From: Anabaena sp. UHCC 0204
GTDB taxonomy: Bacteria > Cyanobacteriota > Cyanobacteriia > Cyanobacteriales > Nostocaceae
Assembly: GCF_009711975.1 (NCBI RefSeq)
Contig: NZ_VIKW01000007.1
Location: 1 to 64,000 of the forward strand
DNA: 64,000 nucleotides
Direction of reading: 5' to 3'
Part shown: positions 2,026 to 49,370 of the stretch, piece by piece
How positions within the stretch are numbered: the stretch's first letter is position 1
Layout of the letters: each line of letters begins with the position of its first letter
Made by a program: the position numbers and the translations under genes
The notes under the pieces: model-generated
The model's input: the letters and a program-made list of their open reading frames with translations, nothing else
Told to the model about the DNA's origin: nothing
Databases searched by the model: none

Positions 2026-3051
2026 ATGAGAATTGCCATTGTTAATGATTTACTTATCGCTGTGGAAGCACTGCGGCGGTTGCTGGACAACATTCCCGAA
2101 TATGATTTAGCATGGGTCGCTTATGACGGTATAGAAGCTGTAGCTAAGTGTGCAGAGGATACCCCCGACTTGATTTTGATGGATGTATTGATGCCAAAAA
2201 TGGATGGGGTAGAAGCTACAAAGCAGATTATGAGCCAATCTCCTTGCGCTATTCTGATGGTAACGGCCAGTGTTAATCGCTATGCAGCTAAGGTATTTGA
2301 AGCAATGGGTTATGGAGCTTTAGATGCAGTCAATACTCCAGCTATTAGTTTTGATCAACAGACAGAGGGTAGCACAAGATTACTCAATAAAATCGCTACT
2401 ATTGCCAGATTAATTGGTAAATCTTCTCGTGGGCGATCGCTCTTGAATATCCCCCCATTACCTAAAAGTCCATCACAACTACATCCACCCCTCATAGTTA
2501 TCGGCTCTTCTACTGGTGGTCCCCAGGCATTAGTTTCTATTCTTTCTCAGTTTCCTCAGAATTTCCATGCCTCTGTGGTCATTGTGCAACATCTTGATGT
2601 GCAGTTTTCTCAAGGCTTTGCAACTTGGTTAAATGGACAAATTTCTCTACCAGTAAAGTTAGCAATTCCCGGTGATCTCCCACAGCCAGGAAAGGTTTTA
2701 ATAGCCGGGACAAATCATCATTTGGTGATGCGTTGTGATCAAACTCTCGATTATCAAGAAGAACCTCTTCAGAGTTTTTACCATCCCTCAGTTGATGTCT
2801 TTTTTGAAAGTGTGGCTAAATATTGGCATCAACCAGGTGTGGGAGTTTTGCTGACGGGTATGGGACGAGATGGCGCTCAGGGTTTAAAACTCCTGCGGGA
2901 CAATGCTTGGCACACTATCGCCCAAGATCAAAAGACTTGCGTCGTCTATGGTATGCCAAAAGTAGCCGTGGAATTAGGTGCAGCGGTTCAAGTTCTAGCT
3001 ATAGATGCGATCGCCTTTGCTTGTAAACAGCACATAGGACAAAAAGTTTGA
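2026..3051 (+). CDS. cheB: CheB-type protein-glutamate methylesterase
   Basis: A two-domain response regulator. Residues 1-120 form a receiver domain with the phospho-acceptor Asp in [13 protein letters not shown]. Residues 155-340 form the CheB esterase with the catalytic Ser in [10 protein letters not shown], His in VQHLD and Asp in [11 protein letters not shown]. CheB removes methyl groups from chemoreceptors and so tunes adaptation of phototaxis or chemotaxis pathways. No other che genes are nearby, so its partner receptor is not evident. The ATG at 2026 gives MRIAIVND, the usual receiver start; an in-frame ATG at 1999 would add nine residues unlike the family. Confidence 0.88.
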
Positions 3052-3146
3052 AATCACTTTTCCGTACTGAAGTATAATATCCACATTAGTCTTCCTCCGG
3101 CTAAATACCGTAGACTGCATAACTTGTGGATTACTCAGGGAATTTT

Positions 3147-4178
3147 ATGTCTTTTAAATACAAAGTTTTATCAATTGATGGTGGTGGTATTCGCGGAATG
3201 ATCCCAGCGAAAATTCTCGCTGAAATTGAAAAGCGCACCGGAAAACCAATATGTCAATTATTTGATTTAATAGCTGGTACTTCCACTGGAGGTATTCTTG
3301 GTTTAGCTTTAAGTAAACCACATCCCAAAAACAAAACTCAACCTCATTATACAGCCAATGATATCGTAGATTTATATGTAAATAATGGCTCTGAAATCTT
3401 TTATGAGTCAATTATCAACAGATACGTAAAATCCGATGATTTTTTATATCCTAAGTTCCCATCGAAAGGTAGAGACAGGGTTTTAGAAGAATATTTACAA
3501 GACACTCTGCTTAAAAATGCACTCACCAATATCTTTGTTACTAGCTACGATATTGAATTACGAAGACCAGTTTTTTTCATCAATAATCCGCACCGTCAAA
3601 AGTTAGGTGAAAACTTTCGACAACTATGTGATGGTTATACAATGAAACAAGCAGGAATGGCCACTTCTGCTGCACCGACTTATTTTGAACCTTACAAAAT
3701 TGACACCATAGATAAAACTGATAACGGCTACTATGCACTAATTGATGGTGGAGTTTTCGCCAATAATCCCACTAATTTAGCAATAATGGAAGCTCTAATT
3801 GCTTCTAAACAATCAGGAGAAGTACCACTTCAACTTAACGAAATTCTTGTAGTTTCTTTGGGGACAGGTTCACTGATTCGTAAGTATTTATATGAAGACG
3901 CAAAAAATTGGGGATTAATTAAATGGGTTGCACCACTAATTAATGTTGTCTTAGATAGTGGTAGTGAATCAGTAGCTTGTCAGCTTGAGCAGTTACTACC
4001 AGTAGTTGATGGTTATCCTCAACAGTATTATCGGTTTCAAGCACCATTGAGTGAAGCTAATGATGATATGGATGATGCTACTCCTAGAAACATTCAAGAG
4101 CTAAAAAATCTAGGAGATTTAATTATTAGACACGAAGATACAGCATTAGATAAACTCTGCCATTTGCTCACAAATTAA
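3147..4178 (+). CDS. Patatin-like phospholipase
   Basis: A lipid acyl hydrolase of about 343 residues. The patatin hallmarks are in order: the oxyanion loop GGGIRGMIP, the nucleophile motif GTSTGG (GxSxG) and the catalytic Asp in DGGVFANNP. Patatins use a Ser-Asp dyad to release fatty acids from membrane lipids. The ATG at 3147 follows CAGGG by six bases and gives MSFKYKVLSIDGGG, the family's normal start; a GTG 21 bases upstream is less likely. The gene stands alone between the regulator and a short repeat, and its physiological substrate cannot be told from sequence. Confidence 0.88.
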   Translation: MSFKYKVLSIDGGGIRGMIPAKILAEIEKRTGKPICQLFDLIAGTSTGGILGLALSKPHPKNKTQPHYTANDIVDLYVNNGSEIFYESIINRYVKSDDFLYPKFPSKGRDRVLEEYLQDTLLKNALTNIFVTSYDIELRRPVFFINNPHRQKLGENFRQLCDGYTMKQAGMATSAAPTYFEPYKIDTIDKTDNGYYALIDGGVFANNPTNLAIMEALIASKQSGEVPLQLNEILVVSLGTGSLIRKYLYEDAKNWGLIKWVAPLINVVLDSGSESVACQLEQLLPVVDGYPQQYYRFQAPLSEANDDMDDATPRNIQELKNLGDLIIRHEDTALDKLCHLLTN

Positions 4179-4211
4179 ACTCCGATCCAAAAATTACAAA
4201 AAAAGGGAACA

Positions 4212-4327
4212 GGCGATTACAAATCGCGTCTACACAGACAAAACCTGCCTACGCAGGTTATAAATCCTTGTTTTTTATTAGTCCACGCAGGTGGACTTTC
4301 CTTGTGTAGCAGTGATTTCTAATCGCC
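4212..4327. repeat. MITE-like repeat, copy 1
   Basis: About 116 bp bounded by GGCGATT and its inverted copy AATCGCC, with inner inverted arms (ACACAGACAAAACC... and ...TTGTGTAG; a CCTGCCTACGCAGG palindrome). A related copy lies at 52174-52313. It encodes nothing. Its right end runs into the 3' end of pth and provides that gene's last two codons and stop (GGC GAT TAG on the minus strand). Confidence 0.7.
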
Positions 4328-4981
4328 CAATACTTTCTGATTTTCAATGTCTGCAAAATTCTGGGTATTGCAACGATTCATGGCCTTTTCTACTCCTTGT
4401 TTAAAACTGAATTCCACACAATCAACTACAAAGTCTAAAACTTGAGACATGACTTTATTTTCAGTAGTGGAAAATCGTCCTAAAACATGAGAGACAGTAT
4501 GAGAATTATCTCCATCTATTGCACCTTTTGGTTTCCCTATCCCAATTCTTAACCGAGGAAAATTTTGGCTATTCAAATGGGAAATAATACTTTTCATCCC
4601 GTTATGTCCACCCGCAGAACCAGACAAACGTAAACGAGTTTTTCCCAAGGGTAAATCCAAATCATCGTAAATTACTAATACTGATTCTGGCTGTATTTTA
4701 TACCAACTGGTGACAGCTTGTATCGCTTGTCCTGAGCGATTCATATAAGTTAAGGGTTTAATTAAGCGGATTTTACCGTTACCTGGTGCAATACCCTCCC
4801 CAAACTCTCCTTGAAATTTGCGATTTTCAGCTAGAGAAATTTGCCAAACACGGGCGAGGGTATCTATCGCTGCAAAGCCAATATTGTGGCGAGTTTGGTC
4901 ATATTTAGGCTCTGGGTTTCCCAATCCGACGATTAGCTGGGGAATTACCAAAGCCTTCTGTTTTACTTCTTCATCCTTCAT
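4319..4981 (-). CDS. pth: Peptidyl-tRNA hydrolase
   Basis: A 220-residue Pth enzyme that recycles peptidyl-tRNAs dropped from ribosomes by cutting the ester between peptide and tRNA. Seen motifs: LIVGLGNPEPKYDQTRHNIGF containing the catalytic His, the YMNRSGQA loop that binds the tRNA end, DDLDLPLGKTRLRLSGSAGGHNGMKSI with the active-site Asp and basic patch, and the RLRIGIGKP strand. Its start codon overlaps the tatA stop (ATGA), so the two are co-transcribed. The last residues LGD and the stop come from a short repeat element, showing that the natural C-terminus has been replaced. Confidence 0.95.
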   Translation of the reverse strand: MKDEEVKQKALVIPQLIVGLGNPEPKYDQTRHNIGFAAIDTLARVWQISLAENRKFQGEFGEGIAPGNGKIRLIKPLTYMNRSGQAIQAVTSWYKIQPESVLVIYDDLDLPLGKTRLRLSGSAGGHNGMKSIISHLNSQNFPRLRIGIGKPKGAIDGDNSHTVSHVLGRFSTTENKVMSQVLDFVVDCVEFSFKQGVEKAMNRCNTQNFADIENQKVLGD

Positions 4982-5574: not shown

Positions 5575-5778
5575 TTAGCCTCCTAAACTGCGCCAATCAA
5601 CAAGCACATCTTGAATTAACAGAGACTTGTTGTAAACTTGGAGGATAATTAACAGAAATACGAAAAATAAACCCATAAACACACCCATTAAAGGTGTTGT
5701 TCCCCAACCTGGAGATACTTTACCATACTCAGCATTTAAGGGTCTGAGAATATCTCCTAACTTAGTCCGTTGTGCCAT
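5575..5778 (-). CDS. psbH: Photosystem II 10 kDa protein PsbH
   Basis: A 67-residue thylakoid protein with one membrane helix ([23 protein letters not shown]). The beginning [28 protein letters not shown] is typical of cyanobacterial PsbH, which lacks the extended phosphorylated N-terminus of plant PsbH. The subunit stabilises the CP47 side of photosystem II and the quinone sites. psbN is transcribed away from it on the other strand but 580 bases off, much further than the usual near-adjacent arrangement. Confidence 0.95.
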
Positions 5779-46342: not shown

Positions 46343-46584
46343 GCTGATTTTTTGCTAAGTGAATTTTTACAAAATAATATTTATATCTTGGCAAAAATTT
46401 GGACATTTGTTTGTATTTTTTTGGCAAAAATGTCGCCAATTATTTGGCAAAAGCTACTGACATAAGTAAAAAGTGACAGCTTACACCAAAATAAAGAAAA
46501 ATTTTCCTTACCCTCTTGACAACCAGAAATATACATACTACATTAATACTACAAGCGACATTCCCAAAGGAGTTAGCTTTTACC

Positions 46585-46706
46585 GTAGCGGATAGCTCAA
46601 ATACCAGAGCGCCCACCTTGCCTTTTCGAGGGTTATCGTAATCTTCCAAATTAAAATACCCTTGCTTAAAATCCCGGAGATGCAGACCAAATTTCTGCTC
46701 CGCTAC
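46585..46706 (+). ncRNA. tRNA-bodied Y RNA-like gene 1 (Y1)
   Basis: The ends GTAGCGGA and TCCGCTAC form a perfect eight-base-pair acceptor stem. A D arm (GCTC/GAGC) and a T stem (GCAGA/TCTGC at 46682-46698) are present, but the T loop is CCAAATT, not the usual TTCRANN. The insert in the anticodon position is reduced: GCCTT-TTCG-AGGGT forms a UUCG-capped helix followed by TATCG, and the inner GCCT/AGGC hairpin seen in the other copies is missing. This is the most diverged copy of the array and may be a decaying or specialised member. Confidence 0.65.
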
Positions 46707-46750
46707 ACCCAAAACGATTTGATATTTTGGATTTGAAATTATTTGTTTAT

Positions 46751-46874
46751 GTGGTGGGTAGCCAAGTGGTAAGGCGCTTAACATCCTTATTCATACCTTG
46801 CCTGCAAAGGCCGACGAATTGAGGGTTATCGTTTAAAGAACGAGCATTCGCAGGTTCGACTCCTGCTCCACCAC
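46751..46874 (+). ncRNA. tRNA-bodied Y RNA-like gene 2 (Y2)
   Basis: GTGGTGGG and TCCACCAC pair as an eight-base-pair acceptor stem; D stem GCC/GGC (46761-46775); T arm GCAGG-TTCGACT-CCTGC (46850-46866). The anticodon loop is replaced by a module: ATCCTT (46783) pairs with GAGGGT (46821); inside it GCCT-GCAA-AGGC (46800-46811) is a GNRA-capped hairpin followed by CGA; TATCG closes. A short stem (GCTT with GAGC) is what remains of the anticodon stem. There is no encoded CCA. With no usable anticodon this is unlikely to be a translating tRNA. Confidence 0.78.
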
Positions 46875-46907
46875 CCAAAATAATTTTAGATTTTTGACTT
46901 TTTACGT

Positions 46908-47047
46908 GCGGGAATAGCTCAGTTGGTAGAGCAGTGAAAGGGGTAAAACCCATATTCCTTGGTTAACAAACTTGCCTGTAAAGGCCGACTTACTGAGGAT
47001 TATCGTTAATTCATCGGTCGCAGGTTCAACTCCTGCTTCCCGCGCCA
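46908..47047 (+). ncRNA. tRNA-bodied Y RNA-like gene 3 (Y3)
   Basis: The best tRNA mimic of the array. Acceptor GCGGGAA/TTCCCGC, then discriminator G and an encoded CCA (47045-47047); TA linker; D stem GCTC/GAGC with an AGTTGGTA loop; T arm GCAGG-TTCAACT-CCTGC; a normal five-base variable region (CGGTC). An intact five-base-pair anticodon stem (GTGAA 46934 with TTCAT 47010) carries the module: a GGG/CCC hairpin, CCTT paired to GAGG, the GCCT-GTAA-AGGC hairpin (46974-46985), CGA and GAGGAT-TATCG. The body resembles tRNA-Gly or tRNA-Ala. It should be a substrate for tRNA end-processing enzymes. Confidence 0.8.
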
Positions 47048-47071
47048 AAACTCTAACTTTTGACTTTCCAT

Positions 47072-47191
47072 GTGGTGGGTAGCCAAGCGGTAAGGCATTT
47101 CATTTTATATCCTTATTCACAACCTTGCCTGCAAAGGCCGATGAATTGAGGGTTATCGAGACATTCGCAGGTTCAAATCCTGCTCCACCAC
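47072..47191 (+). ncRNA. tRNA-bodied Y RNA-like gene 4 (Y4)
   Basis: Close relative of Y2: acceptor GTGGTGGG/TCCACCAC, D stem GCC/GGC, T arm GCAGG-TTCAAAT-CCTGC (47067 is the spacer; T arm 47167-47183). The residual anticodon stem is TTTC/GAGA, different in sequence from Y2 (CTT/GAG) yet still paired, which supports the fold. The module has ATCCTT (47109) with GAGGGT (47148), the GCCT-GCAA-AGGC hairpin (47127-47138) and CGA. The 3' flank CCCAAAACAATTTTAGATTTT also repeats that of Y2, so the two arose by duplication. Confidence 0.78.
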
Positions 47192-47221
47192 CCAAAACAA
47201 TTTTAGATTTTGAATTTTTCT

Positions 47222-47378
47222 GTAGTGGGTGGCGAAATTGGTAAACGCACCAGAGTAAATCCTTAATTTACTTTCCTTGCCTAAACAGGCCGAAAAGTTG
47301 AGGGTTATCGGGTTCTGGTGATGAAAATTTTGCAGGTATGCCTTCGGCACGCTACGCGAACAACTCCTGTCTCACTAC
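47222..47378 (+). ncRNA. tRNA-bodied Y RNA-like gene 5 (Y5), Leu-type body with broken T loop
   Basis: Acceptor GTAGTGGG/CTCACTAC. The D arm GGCGAAATTGGTAAACGC and the seven-base-pair anticodon stem CACCAGA (47248)/TCTGGTG (47314) are like tRNA-Leu. The module has ATCCTT (47259), GCCT-AAAC-AGGC (47279-47290), CGA and GAGGGT (47300). The T stem GCAGG/CCTGT is present, but its loop is interrupted by a 23-base palindromic repeat (about 47338-47360, with GCCTTCGGC and CGTAGCG-type arms), which should spoil the T loop. This copy may be inactive or altered. Confidence 0.68.
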
Positions 47379-47417
47379 ACCAAACCTCTATTCAATCTAA
47401 AATCCAAAATCCATTAT

Positions 47418-47544
47418 GTGGCAGGTAGTTCAGCGGCCTAGAACACCTAAAACATCCTTTTTCATACCTTGCCTGAAAAGGCCGACGAAAGAGGGTTATC
47501 GCCTTCTAAGCGGGAGATCGCAGGTTCAAATCCTGCCCTGCCAC
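47418..47544 (+). ncRNA. tRNA-bodied Y RNA-like gene 6 (Y6), Arg/Asp-type body
   Basis: Acceptor GTGGCAGG/CCTGCCAC, D stem GTTC/GAAC, T arm GCAGG-TTCAAAT-CCTGC (47520-47536). The module (ATCCTT 47454; GCCT-GAAA-AGGC 47471-47482; CGA; GAGGGT 47491; TATCG) is followed by CGC-CTTCTAA-GCG (47500-47512), a seven-base loop identical in form to an arginine anticodon arm with UCU. So here the module sits beside, not inside, the remnant anticodon loop, showing how a tRNA was invaded. It ends 52 bases before the rsr start codon. Confidence 0.76.
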
Positions 47545-47570
47545 CTTCCACTTTGTGGAATCTCAAAATT

Positions 47571-47588
47571 GCCTGAAAAGGCCGGGAG
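47571..47588 (+). promoter_or_regulatory. Y-type hairpin and ribosome-binding site in the rsr leader
   Basis: GCCT-GAAA-AGGC (47571-47582) is the same GNRA hairpin, with the same TTG before it and C after it, as in Y6. It is followed at once by GGGAG (47584-47588), the ribosome-binding site of rsr, and nine bases on by ATG. A second hairpin, TTCCAC-TTT-GTGGAA (47546-47560), lies just upstream. If Ro60 recognises this hairpin it would cover its own ribosome-binding site. Confidence 0.6.
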
Positions 47589-47596
47589 AAGCAGCC

Positions 47597-49198
47597 ATGA
47601 ATTATAACTTCTTTACTAAAAACAAAAATACTACACCCCAAAATCAGCCTATTCCTGGAAGGGAAAAAGAGATGATCAAAGGGCGTAGTGGCGGCTATAT
47701 GTTCGATGCTGGTATTTGGAAAATGCTGCGTCGGTGTCTGTTGATAGGAACAGCAAAAAGCACGTACTACGCTGGTAAACAGGAATTAACAGAAGATTTT
47801 GCTAATATTCTCAACCAAGCCGTGGCGGAAAATCCTGGACGGGTAGCCGAAGAAATTCTCTATGCTAGTGATGGCCGCGCCATAAATAACAGTGCGCCAA
47901 TTCTCGCTTTGGTATTGCTGTCTATGGGTGAAACACCAGAAGCTAAAAAAGCATTTGGTGAAATTTTCCCCCAAGTTGTCCGCACAGGTAGCCATTTTTA
48001 TGAATGGTTGAATTACACCAAATCTTTGCGGGGTTTCGGTAAAGTTATCCGCGAAGCTGGTAAAACGTGGCTATCACGGGAAGATGTCAAAGGTTTGGCT
48101 TATCAACTTTTGAAATATCAACAACGTCAAGGTTTTACTCACCGTGATGCTTTGCGGTTGTTTCACGTCAACCCACCTACAGAAAATCACCGTCAATTAT
48201 TTGAGTGGGTTGTGAAAGGTTGGGAAGAGTTACCCGCAGATATACCCTCAGATGCTTTAGCGCAGATTTGGTGGTATGAATGGCTCAAGCGTAACCCTAG
48301 CGAAACTCATACCGCTATTTCTCAAGGACGCTTAACCCATGAAATGGCTGCACCTGTGGGTAACATGGATAAGCAAGCTTGGAATTTGCTCTTTCAAGAA
48401 ATGCCTATAGGGGCAATGTTACGGAATTTAGGTTCTTTGACTCAATTAGAGGTTTTGCGGGCTGATGAAGGCGCAAATTTGCAGCGTGTGGAAGCAGTTC
48501 TTAATAACCGTGAACATTTGAGAAAAGGTCGAATTCATCCCATTGATGTTTTAAAAGCTCTCAAAACCTATCAATCTGGAGGAAGTTTAGGACGCAGTAA
48601 GAAGACTTGGAAACCAGTTTCCCGCATTGTGGATATTTTGGAAAAAGCGGTCGAACTGTCTTTTGAGGTGGTAGAACCGACTGGTAAAGTCTTTATGCAC
48701 GCTGTAGATATTTCTGGTTCTATGGGTAGCTTGGTTGCAGATATGGGTTTAAGTTGCTGTGAAATCGCCACAACAATGGCGTTAGTAACAGCAAAAGCTG
48801 AAAAAAACTATGCAATTCGCGGTTTTTCAACTCAGTTTAAAGATTTGGATATTACTGCGAAGGATAGTTTTAGTTCTGCGGTTCGCAAAGCTAGTAACCA
48901 AAACTTTGGCGGAACTGATGCGAGTGTAGCTTATGACTGGATGATCAAGAATAAGTTTAAGGCTGATGTTGTCTGCTTTTGGACTGACTCGGAAAGCTGG
49001 GCGGGTAATAAACATCCTAGTCAAGCTTTGCAGGAATACCGGAAAAAGATCAATCCTCATGTTAAGGCTGTTTATGTGACTTTAACTCCTTACCGTATTT
49101 CTTTGGTAGATCCAAAAGATCCTTTATCTTGGGATTTGGCGGGGTTTGATCCGAGTATTCCGCGCATTATCCAAATGTTAGCTAATGACGATTTGTAA
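47597..49198 (+). CDS. rsr: Ro60/TROVE-domain RNA-binding protein (Rsr)
   Basis: A 533-residue orthologue of the Ro60 autoantigen. The N-terminal TROVE domain is a ring of helical repeats (MLRRCLLIGTAKSTYYAGKQELT; EEILYASDGRAINNSAPILALVLLSMG; WEELPADIPSDALAQIWWYEWLKRNP) whose outer face binds Y RNA and whose hole takes in misfolded RNA ends. The C-terminal von Willebrand A domain has the metal site HAVDISGSMGS and NFGGTDAS. In Deinococcus the protein works with Y RNA and PNPase in RNA decay and stress survival. Start at 47597 has GGGAG nine bases upstream; a GTG at 47555 would read through the leader hairpin. It is embedded in seven Y-like RNA genes. Confidence 0.93.
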   Translation: MNYNFFTKNKNTTPQNQPIPGREKEMIKGRSGGYMFDAGIWKMLRRCLLIGTAKSTYYAGKQELTEDFANILNQAVAENPGRVAEEILYASDGRAINNSAPILALVLLSMGETPEAKKAFGEIFPQVVRTGSHFYEWLNYTKSLRGFGKVIREAGKTWLSREDVKGLAYQLLKYQQRQGFTHRDALRLFHVNPPTENHRQLFEWVVKGWEELPADIPSDALAQIWWYEWLKRNPSETHTAISQGRLTHEMAAPVGNMDKQAWNLLFQEMPIGAMLRNLGSLTQLEVLRADEGANLQRVEAVLNNREHLRKGRIHPIDVLKALKTYQSGGSLGRSKKTWKPVSRIVDILEKAVELSFEVVEPTGKVFMHAVDISGSMGSLVADMGLSCCEIATTMALVTAKAEKNYAIRGFSTQFKDLDITAKDSFSSAVRKASNQNFGGTDASVAYDWMIKNKFKADVVCFWTDSESWAGNKHPSQALQEYRKKINPHVKAVYVTLTPYRISLVDPKDPLSWDLAGFDPSIPRIIQMLANDDL

Positions 49199-49223
49199 AG
49201 TTGTGCTGTATATTGTTTGATAA

Positions 49224-49245
49224 GGGATAAATACAACTTTATCCC
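49224..49245 (+). terminator. Hairpin after rsr
   Basis: GGGATAAA-TACAAC-TTTATCCC is a perfect eight-base-pair hairpin 26 bases after the rsr stop. No T run follows, so it is either a weak terminator or a separator from the downstream Y-like RNA. Confidence 0.55.
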
Positions 49246-49255
49246 TGATCTTTCC

Positions 49256-49370
49256 TGGCGGGTTTCCCTTGTTCGTAACTTGCCTTTTTAGGCCGATGAA
49301 TTTAGGGTTATCATTGGTTAAAGTCTCCACCATTTTCGGGGATGAGTGGGTTCGATCCCCACACCCGCCA
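49256..49370 (+). ncRNA. Y RNA-like gene 7 (Y7), lacks D arm
   Basis: The ends TGGCGGGT and ACCCGCCA form a perfect eight-base-pair stem; the T arm GTGGG-TTCGATC-CCCAC (49346-49362) is perfectly tRNA-like. The D arm is absent: the Y module begins at once, with CCCT (49266) paired to AGGG (49304), GCCT-TTTT-AGGC (49282-49293), CGA and TTATC. The changed pair CCCT/AGGG against CCTT/GAGG elsewhere supports the helix. A further stem TCTCC/GGGGA (49324-49342) fills the anticodon-arm position. It lies 58 bases after rsr, on the same strand. Confidence 0.7.

Follow-up and report, generated by a model that had tools for sequence, protein, structure and literature searches.

A seven-unit array of tRNA-shaped, probable Y RNA genes around the Ro60 gene of Anabaena sp. 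UHCC 0204

The draft genome of Anabaena sp. UHCC 0204 (G000; 5.74 Mb in 83 contigs) contains one match to Rsr, the bacterial orthologue of Ro60, and the DNA around it was analyzed as a stretch of 64,000 nucleotides (nt), positions 1 to 64000 of contig C77, hereafter called the window. The encoded protein is a full Ro60 with the vWA_Ro60 and TROVE domains (PF25045, E 8.9e-39; PF05731, E 3.4e-17), and phmmer aligned its residues 14-526 with Xenopus Ro (1yvp) and 13-530 with Deinococcus Rsr (2nvo). A histidine-containing Rsr motif is kept in 62 of 80 related loci and was not used as evidence. The rsr gene is flanked by seven tRNA-shaped units, six upstream and one downstream, all on the + strand. 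These units, numbered Y1 to Y7, and the features around them are given below, with bit scores from a covariance model (R1) that was trained on 55 units, three of them from the window (Y2, Y3 and Y6). Type A and type B denote two orders of the unit parts, described further on.

46516 to 46544, +: promoter-like site TTGACA-N17-TACATT, a possible start of the whole transcript (10/12 consensus letters; by eye also in locus L061)
46585 to 46709, +: Y1, type B order, damaged core (acceptor 7/7, T stem 5/5; R1 32.5 bits; 13 nt missing relative to L061)
46751 to 46877, +: Y2, type A, tRNA-Gln-like body, 8-bp acceptor followed by CCA (R1 120.7 bits, training unit; fold)
46908 to 47047, +: Y3, type A, with an extra small hairpin and G73-CCA (Rfam tRNA 51.4 bits with a 71-nt insert; R1 95.3 bits, training unit)
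47072 to 47194, +: Y4, type A, tRNA-Gln-like body, 8-bp acceptor followed by CCA (Rfam tRNA 41.3 bits; R1 104.1 bits, not a training unit)
47222 to 47382, +: Y5, type A, tRNA-Leu-like body, 8-bp acceptor followed by ACCA, interrupted T-loop (R1 72.9 bits)
47338 to 47360, +: dispersed repeat inside the Y5 T-loop (single window copy; 14 genome places)
47418 to 47544, +: Y6, type A, 8-bp acceptor, CCA not encoded (R1 123.8 bits, training unit; fold)
47569 to 47588, +: leader hairpin of rsr, which contains the Y core and extends into the ribosome-site GGGAG (exact core; kept in 39/39 aligned leaders)
47597 to 49198, +: rsr, Ro60 orthologue of 533 aa (Pfam TROVE and vWA_Ro60; phmmer to 1yvp and 2nvo)
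49257 to 49370, +: Y7, no D arm, CCA not encoded (acceptor 7/7, T stem 5/5; R1 43.0 bits)

This array around rsr is real. When both strands of the 64 kb were scanned with R1, exactly seven matches were obtained, at 123.8, 120.7, 104.1, 95.3, 72.9, 43.0 and 32.5 bits, all on the rsr strand. This is in line with the original prediction, made by a model from the letters of the window, of six units before rsr and one after it. The Rfam tRNA model, which makes no use of R1, exceeded its cut-off at Y3 (51.4 bits) and Y4 (41.3 bits) in the window scan, and at Y4 (41.3 bits) and Y2 (36.9 bits) in a whole-genome scan. The motif TTGCCT-N4-AGGCCG is present in seven copies between 46798 and 49295, all exact and all on the + strand; 0.21 copies were expected by chance with one mismatch allowed, and seven were reached in none of 100 shuffles. 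Six copies of GAGGGTTATCG (at most one mismatch) were found against 0.44 expected, a number again reached in 0/100 shuffles. The core had been described as shared by all units but Y1. Seven exact copies do exist, but one of them (47569-47584) lies outside any tRNA-like unit, 12 nt before the rsr ATG, where it belongs to the leader hairpin.

The units have the body of a tRNA, with acceptor, D and T arms, except that the D arm is absent in Y7. Paired ends and a T stem had been expected throughout; the acceptor is indeed paired at 7/7 positions in all seven units, whereas the T stem is 5/5 at the expected place in six of them. The acceptor-to-acceptor gaps among the upstream six (46, 34, 29, 32 and 41 nt) agree with the predicted spacers of 24-44 bases if 3′ tails are counted. 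The anticodon arm is absent, and its place is occupied by a long stem, the Y stem. Folding of Y2 and Y6 alone recovered the acceptor stem, the long Y stem with its tetraloop-capped end and the T arm; in contrast, Y4 and Y5 adopted other folds on their own. Y1, which follows the type B order, has lost its core because it is 13 nt shorter than its apparent L061 counterpart, AGGCCGA being among the lost letters. The T-loop of Y5 is interrupted by a 23-nt dispersed repeat (47338-47360), found once in the window, whose 22-nt part occurs at 14 places in the genome (at most two mismatches; reversed control 0). This repeat enters T-loops of tRNA-like units and leaves the stem intact; in L061 it lies in the counterpart of Y5 and, with one change, in the next unit (near 4735 and 4925).

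Structural evidence was gathered from related loci, the best 80 of 171 rsr relatives found in the genome collection and 30 further ones. A descriptor requiring acceptor and T-stem pairing within the unit, together with a core pattern, gave 282 candidates across 110 rsr loci, that of the window among them. Twelve were removed (eleven without a GGGTTATC-like strand, one on the wrong strand), leaving 270, then four more (three chance matches and an overlong one), leaving 266 units. As six of the 30 further loci duplicate stretches of the 80-locus set, they were excluded and the main counts redone on 250 units, 27 of which have no D arm. In a structural alignment (A1) of 55 diverse type A units, with the structure written by hand from A1 and the folds, 95.4% of cells are paired and both sides have changed in 23 of 29 pairs. 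None of 500 shuffles reached any of five measures, and versions slid out of register paired in 39-53% of cells. Compensatory changes occur in every helix. Acceptor and T-stem pairing is partly favored by the descriptor, whereas the long Y stem was not used in selection; it pairs in 91.1% of cells, with 4/9 pairs doubly changed. The letters and pairing of A1 include a Y stem with a conserved bulge and a GUUAUC strand.

In type A units, the parts follow the order acceptor, D arm, 3′ strand of the Y stem, loop, 5′ strand of the Y stem, T arm, acceptor. In the alignment of YrlA, a bacterial Y RNA, the ends lie in the Y stem and the T arm precedes the D arm, with the acceptor between them. According to a passage of PMC11472068, the YrlA structure 6CU1 superposes on tRNA with a circular permutation. 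Since YrlA is permuted relative to tRNA while the units keep the tRNA order, the units can be regarded as its tRNA-ordered counterpart. In a second arrangement, type B, the core hairpin comes first and the 3′ strand of the Y stem follows it. Automatic labeling put many A units into type B, so that a hand-picked list of clear cases was used; in 11/11 of these the fit of the unit's own strand is better than the average obtained with strands of the other units (–13.2 vs. –9.0 kcal/mol). Type B occurs in distant lineages (L056-L058, L109, L139 and others) and, by eye, also in PCC 7002.

The same parts could also be read as canonical YrlA in a shifted register, each RNA starting in the Y stem of one unit and finishing in the Y stem of its neighbor. 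Indeed, among the 15 sub-threshold YrlA matches listed for 31 rsr genomes, nine span neighboring array units. But two tandem tRNA-Asn genes (L164) do likewise at 44.4 bits, as is to be expected of any neighbors. Such matches were therefore dropped as support for the permutation, and those in L190, L202, L203 and L204 are not claimed as YrlA, because the tRNA-Asn pair scores likewise. In a register test on 93 informative neighbor pairs, from which duplicate loci had been removed, the acceptor paired at 7/7 within the unit in 87 and across units in 13, and the long Y stem was stronger within the unit in 55 of 87 and across in 18. Units also stand alone, for instance after rsr. Given the favored within-unit register, the solitary units and the tRNA-Asn control, the shifted register is very unlikely and was rejected.

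The units are tied to Ro60 well beyond this strain. Of 148 genomes sampled from the order, 33 gave an Rsr match, two of them (G042 and G094) through fragments only. All 31 genomes with a whole or nearly whole rsr have R1 matches spanning 100 nt or more with E ≤4.9e-16, as against none of the other 117, in which the best match reached E 4.0e-11 (G084) and the next was an ordinary 72-nt tRNA (5.9e-10). The G084 match (L160) is a relic Y array without an rsr match, in the same genus as G042, which keeps rsr fragments. A covariance search had been set beforehand as the test of this link, and its strong matches lie within about 2.1 kb of rsr in 30/31 genomes; in the draft G107 they sit on a different contig. 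In a second sample, of 292 genomes from the phylum and sharing some members with the first, matches occur in 23/23 genomes with rsr at ≥70% identity (worst E 8.6e-17) and a real unit in 1/269 others, G181 (8.8e-12), near a divergent Rsr of 38% identity; four further genomes pass 1e-9 through 72-nt tRNAs. Both samples thus bear out the suggestion of Y RNA-like genes linked to Ro60. In the 80-locus set, R1 gave 323 matches in 79 loci, every one in the orientation of rsr; 263 lie upstream of the gene, no more than 1.6 kb away, and 60 downstream, no more than 0.4 kb away. As the number per locus ranges from 0 to 8 with a median of 4, arrays are the rule beside rsr, and the array was less unusual than first thought; seven is nevertheless at the high end, with at least seven in 2/80 loci, and eleven units in a row occur in G044. 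The nearest rsr locus is that of Anabaena catenula, with 95% Rsr identity, among the best 80 of 171 relatives. In L163 (G091), rsr is in two pieces about 760 bp apart and the units are still there.

This distribution also bears on whether the units are ordinary tRNA genes interrupted by an intron-like insert and matured by splicing, as the Rfam tRNA matches at Y3 and Y4 with their inserts might suggest. ARAGORN found no tRNA gene in the window, no group I or other intron family was found at the units, and the insert is conserved across units and tied to rsr genomes. Some bodies, moreover, have no D arm or follow the type B order. A spliced tRNA is thus almost certainly the wrong description, and it was rejected on the ARAGORN result, the lack of an intron family and the conserved, rsr-bound insert.

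We consider it likely that the intact units are tRNA-first Y RNAs, i.e., a circular permutation of YrlA in which the Y stem replaces the anticodon arm. Their anatomy, compensatory changes, strand order and linkage to rsr are direct observations; it is also probable that tRNA enzymes release the units and that Rsr binds them. Several results weigh against this interpretation. Two of the seven window units (Y1 and Y5) look damaged. Across-unit acceptors pair at ≥6/7 in 62 of the 93 neighbor pairs, and the register test leans toward the within-unit solution because the descriptor demanded such pairing. R1 was trained on units from rsr loci, so that its sensitivity, though not its specificity, is partly built in, and in the 80-locus set L121 has no match and L077 a single weak one. 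Finally, the YrlA family (RF02553, cut-off 69 bits) scores 22.9 bits across two units in the window and exceeds its cut-off in 0/31 rsr genomes, a failure attributed to the circular permutation of the parts. The original prediction held neither this permutation nor the leader hairpin nor the damage in Y1 and Y5.

The tRNA-first reading suggests the following course. The array would be transcribed, probably together with rsr; a promoter scan of the region gave 5 sites vs. 6.2 in shuffles, which is not above chance. RNase P, 3′ trimming and, where CCA is not encoded, CCA addition would release the units. Rsr would then dock on the Y stem, contacting the GGGUUAUC strand and the bulge made up of CUU, ahead of the core hairpin, and CCGA, behind it. 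The letters GGCCGA, CUUGCC and GGUUAUC found here resemble GUCCGA, CUUGAC and GUUAUC, which we take to be the Ro60-binding letters of Deinococcus and animal Y RNAs. The tRNA body, pointing outward as the effector side, may bring the Rsr ring to tRNA-recognizing proteins, with RNA turnover or tRNA quality control as the outcome. This role is assigned by analogy with Deinococcus, where passages of PMC7790460 and PMC8394870 describe a Y RNA that tethers Rsr to PNPase. Compared with that arrangement, the free ends would be a new feature.

The bodies themselves differ in their nearest tRNA of the source genome. Y2 and Y4 are closest to Gln (75 and 77; next 61 each), Y5 to Leu (55; best non-Leu 42) and Y3 to Phe (75; next 69), while no clear isotype emerged for Y1 and Y6 among the genome's own tRNAs. 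In relatives, eight rows, two of them identical in sequence, favor Leu by 12-28 points. These differences, from a comparison made without a random control, suggest mixed tRNA origins, Y modules having perhaps been joined to several tRNA genes or tRNA parts exchanged.

The resemblance to several tRNA types also fits a different role, in which the units are anticodon-less decoys that occupy or resist tRNA-cutting nucleases or other tRNA binders and are merely stored by Rsr. In a passage of PMC7790460, competitive inhibition of an anticodon nuclease is mentioned as a possible role of YrlA. Divergent or partial distant Rsr (27-38% identity) was found in seven further genomes of the phylum, and four of the six divergent loci examined lie among ordinary tRNA genes (ARAGORN: L184 8, L187 13, L189 5, L190 1), unlike L185 and L186. 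On the other side, a decoy role alone does not explain the kept Y stem, and no nuclease is linked to the units here. We regard such decoys as the less probable account, yet as a serious alternative, one which overlaps the tRNA-first reading rather than excluding it.

Both layouts of the RNA turn up in this wider context. Canonical YrlA forms with a closed acceptor were recognized by reading the sequence in L187 and L194, and a phage contig (L169, 5600-7000) has Rsr, a row of YrlA-like units, with canonical forms at 41.2 and 39.7 bits, under the cut-off, and transfer-messenger RNA (tmRNA). L194, which covers more of the contig that L184 comes from, has tRNA-first units as well, at 2299-2419 (–) and 3132-3255 (–), so that both layouts occur, once on one contig. 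There, a YrlA-type RNA at 4420-4521 (–) stands in the same long tRNA array as the tRNA-first units, with a divergent Rsr; this array is a possible intermediate. Within the genus of the window, no fewer than 13 ordinary tRNA genes accompany a divergent Rsr of 33% identity in G241 (L187/L197). Rsr relatives occur in 343 of 50,697 phage records, all below 60% identity, and in 58 of 72,556 plasmid records, the four closest being from Picosynechococcus; on plasmid pAQ7 of the laboratory strain Picosynechococcus sp. PCC 7002, three R1 matches (96.8, 64.7 and 40.3 bits) precede the TROVE gene. In locus L200 of that plasmid, the units lie near 2491-2617, 2639-2749 and 2771-2896, and rsr at 2950-4551. 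Three separate observations may be recorded here. A tRNA-shaped gene at L161 (G041 C1:3487689-3487852) has a long unrelated insert with two near-identical repeats; L195 4031-4096 (–), beside a divergent Rsr, matches a nematode small RNA family at 37.4 bits (cut-off 38); and the window at 5677-5737 (+) matches the Rfam Plastid-psbN 5′UTR at 52.8 bits (cut-off 50), in a cyanobacterium.

The ends of the units also resemble those of mature tRNA. CCA is encoded in 103 of the 250 units vs. 1 of 39 tRNA genes of the source genome, an incomplete set in which 150 of 407 candidates were scored. In most units the acceptor is extended by an eighth pair, usually G-1:C73. A73-CCA forms the 3′ end of 75 of the 223 units that possess a D arm, and G3.U70 is present in 53 of those 75 vs. 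6 of the 148 others (Fisher p 1e-26, a p-value inflated, like all those for this alanine signal, by relatedness). With look-alikes collapsed, the counts are 36/57 vs. 6/132. In the 52 collapsed units of the 8-bp A73-CCA class, G.U or U.G occurs at position 3 in 35 and at positions 4-7 in 2, 1, 0 and 1, and position 8 also favors G.U (19 units); these collapsed and positional counts include the six duplicate loci. Later-fetched loci gave 6/9 vs. 1/22, or 4/6 vs. 1/18 by row recount after removal of three repeats among the 14. In the source genome, G3.U70 is found only in two tRNA-Ala genes among 39 and in none of the window's units, Y5 having A3-U70 with ACCA. It is conceivable, though doubtful, that the part of cyanobacterial Y RNAs with G3.U70, A73 and CCA is alanylated as tmRNA is, the Y stem being a module set into different tRNA genes; charging of such units in relatives is speculation drawn from their letters. 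G3.U70 is more plainly accounted for by a 3′ end, CTACACCA, that is conserved while the 5′ side drifts. If charging were true, Ro60 particles would carry a chargeable tRNA body, could go via EF-Tu and could sense alanine charging or tRNA damage, and the three strand orders (canonical, type A and type B) of one Ro-binding helix would form no single family of fixed layout.

The leader hairpin of rsr, TTGCCTGAAAAGGCCGGGAG, ends 8 nt before the ATG. In an alignment of 39 leaders (the window and 38 of the 80 loci), TTG, the second C after TTG, and GG are invariant, and the fourth pair is UA in 21, CG in 15, UG in 2 and absent in 1; a looser scan recognized the leader in 71/109 loci, with several starts misplaced among L032-L060. 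With Y RNA in short supply, free Rsr may attach to this similar hairpin at the rsr ribosome-binding site and reduce translation, so that Rsr may sense its own excess. The chance is only a little short of even that it is instead a plain ribosome-site hairpin or the relic of a lost unit, with no Rsr-dependent control: the leader has no GGGUUAUC strand, and the stem is weakly supported, with double changes in 1/4 pairs, because a version slid by one pairs equally well (118/118 cells). Such an account has to face the retention of the core letters in 39/39 leaders, including those where the preceding bases hold no unit (L111, L116, L119 and L136). The hairpin suggests a simple feedback on Ro60.

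Likely Y RNAs near Ro60 were reportedly noted in more than 250 species by Chen et al. in 2014. Our literature searches returned no account of cyanobacterial Y RNAs, although a prior description, e.g., in that work or in two reviews, is possible, and Rfam 15 holds no family fitting these units. They would represent a rearranged form of known bacterial Y RNAs that gives Ro60 a tRNA look-alike with free ends. If Rsr binds them, the layout of Y RNA is not fixed; one protein-binding helix exists in several strand orders, and one such order makes the RNA a free-ended mimic of tRNA. The purpose of tRNA mimicry by Y RNA (charging, EF-Tu, the CCA enzyme, tRNA nucleases, PNPase) would then become directly testable in cyanobacteria, whose arrays place natural variants side by side.

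Compared with known systems, the units are most readily set beside YrlA (RF02553; PDB 6CU1), with which they share tRNA-like D and T arms, a Y stem with a GCCGA-type bulge and a gene position beside rsr. In YrlA the acceptor is closed and the Y stem open, whereas in the units the acceptor ends are free, often with CCA, and it is the Y stem that is capped. Deinococcus and animal Y RNAs differ from the window units in that their Y stem consists of the 5′ and 3′ ends of the RNA. With tRNA (RF00005) the units have in common the acceptor, D and T arms, including Gln-like and Leu-like bodies, but they have a Y stem instead of an anticodon arm and usually an eighth acceptor pair. Like the tRNA-like domain of tmRNA, they are tRNA mimics without an anticodon, and some units of relatives share its G3.U70, A73 and CCA; unlike tmRNA, they have no message part, and G3.U70 is absent from those of the window.

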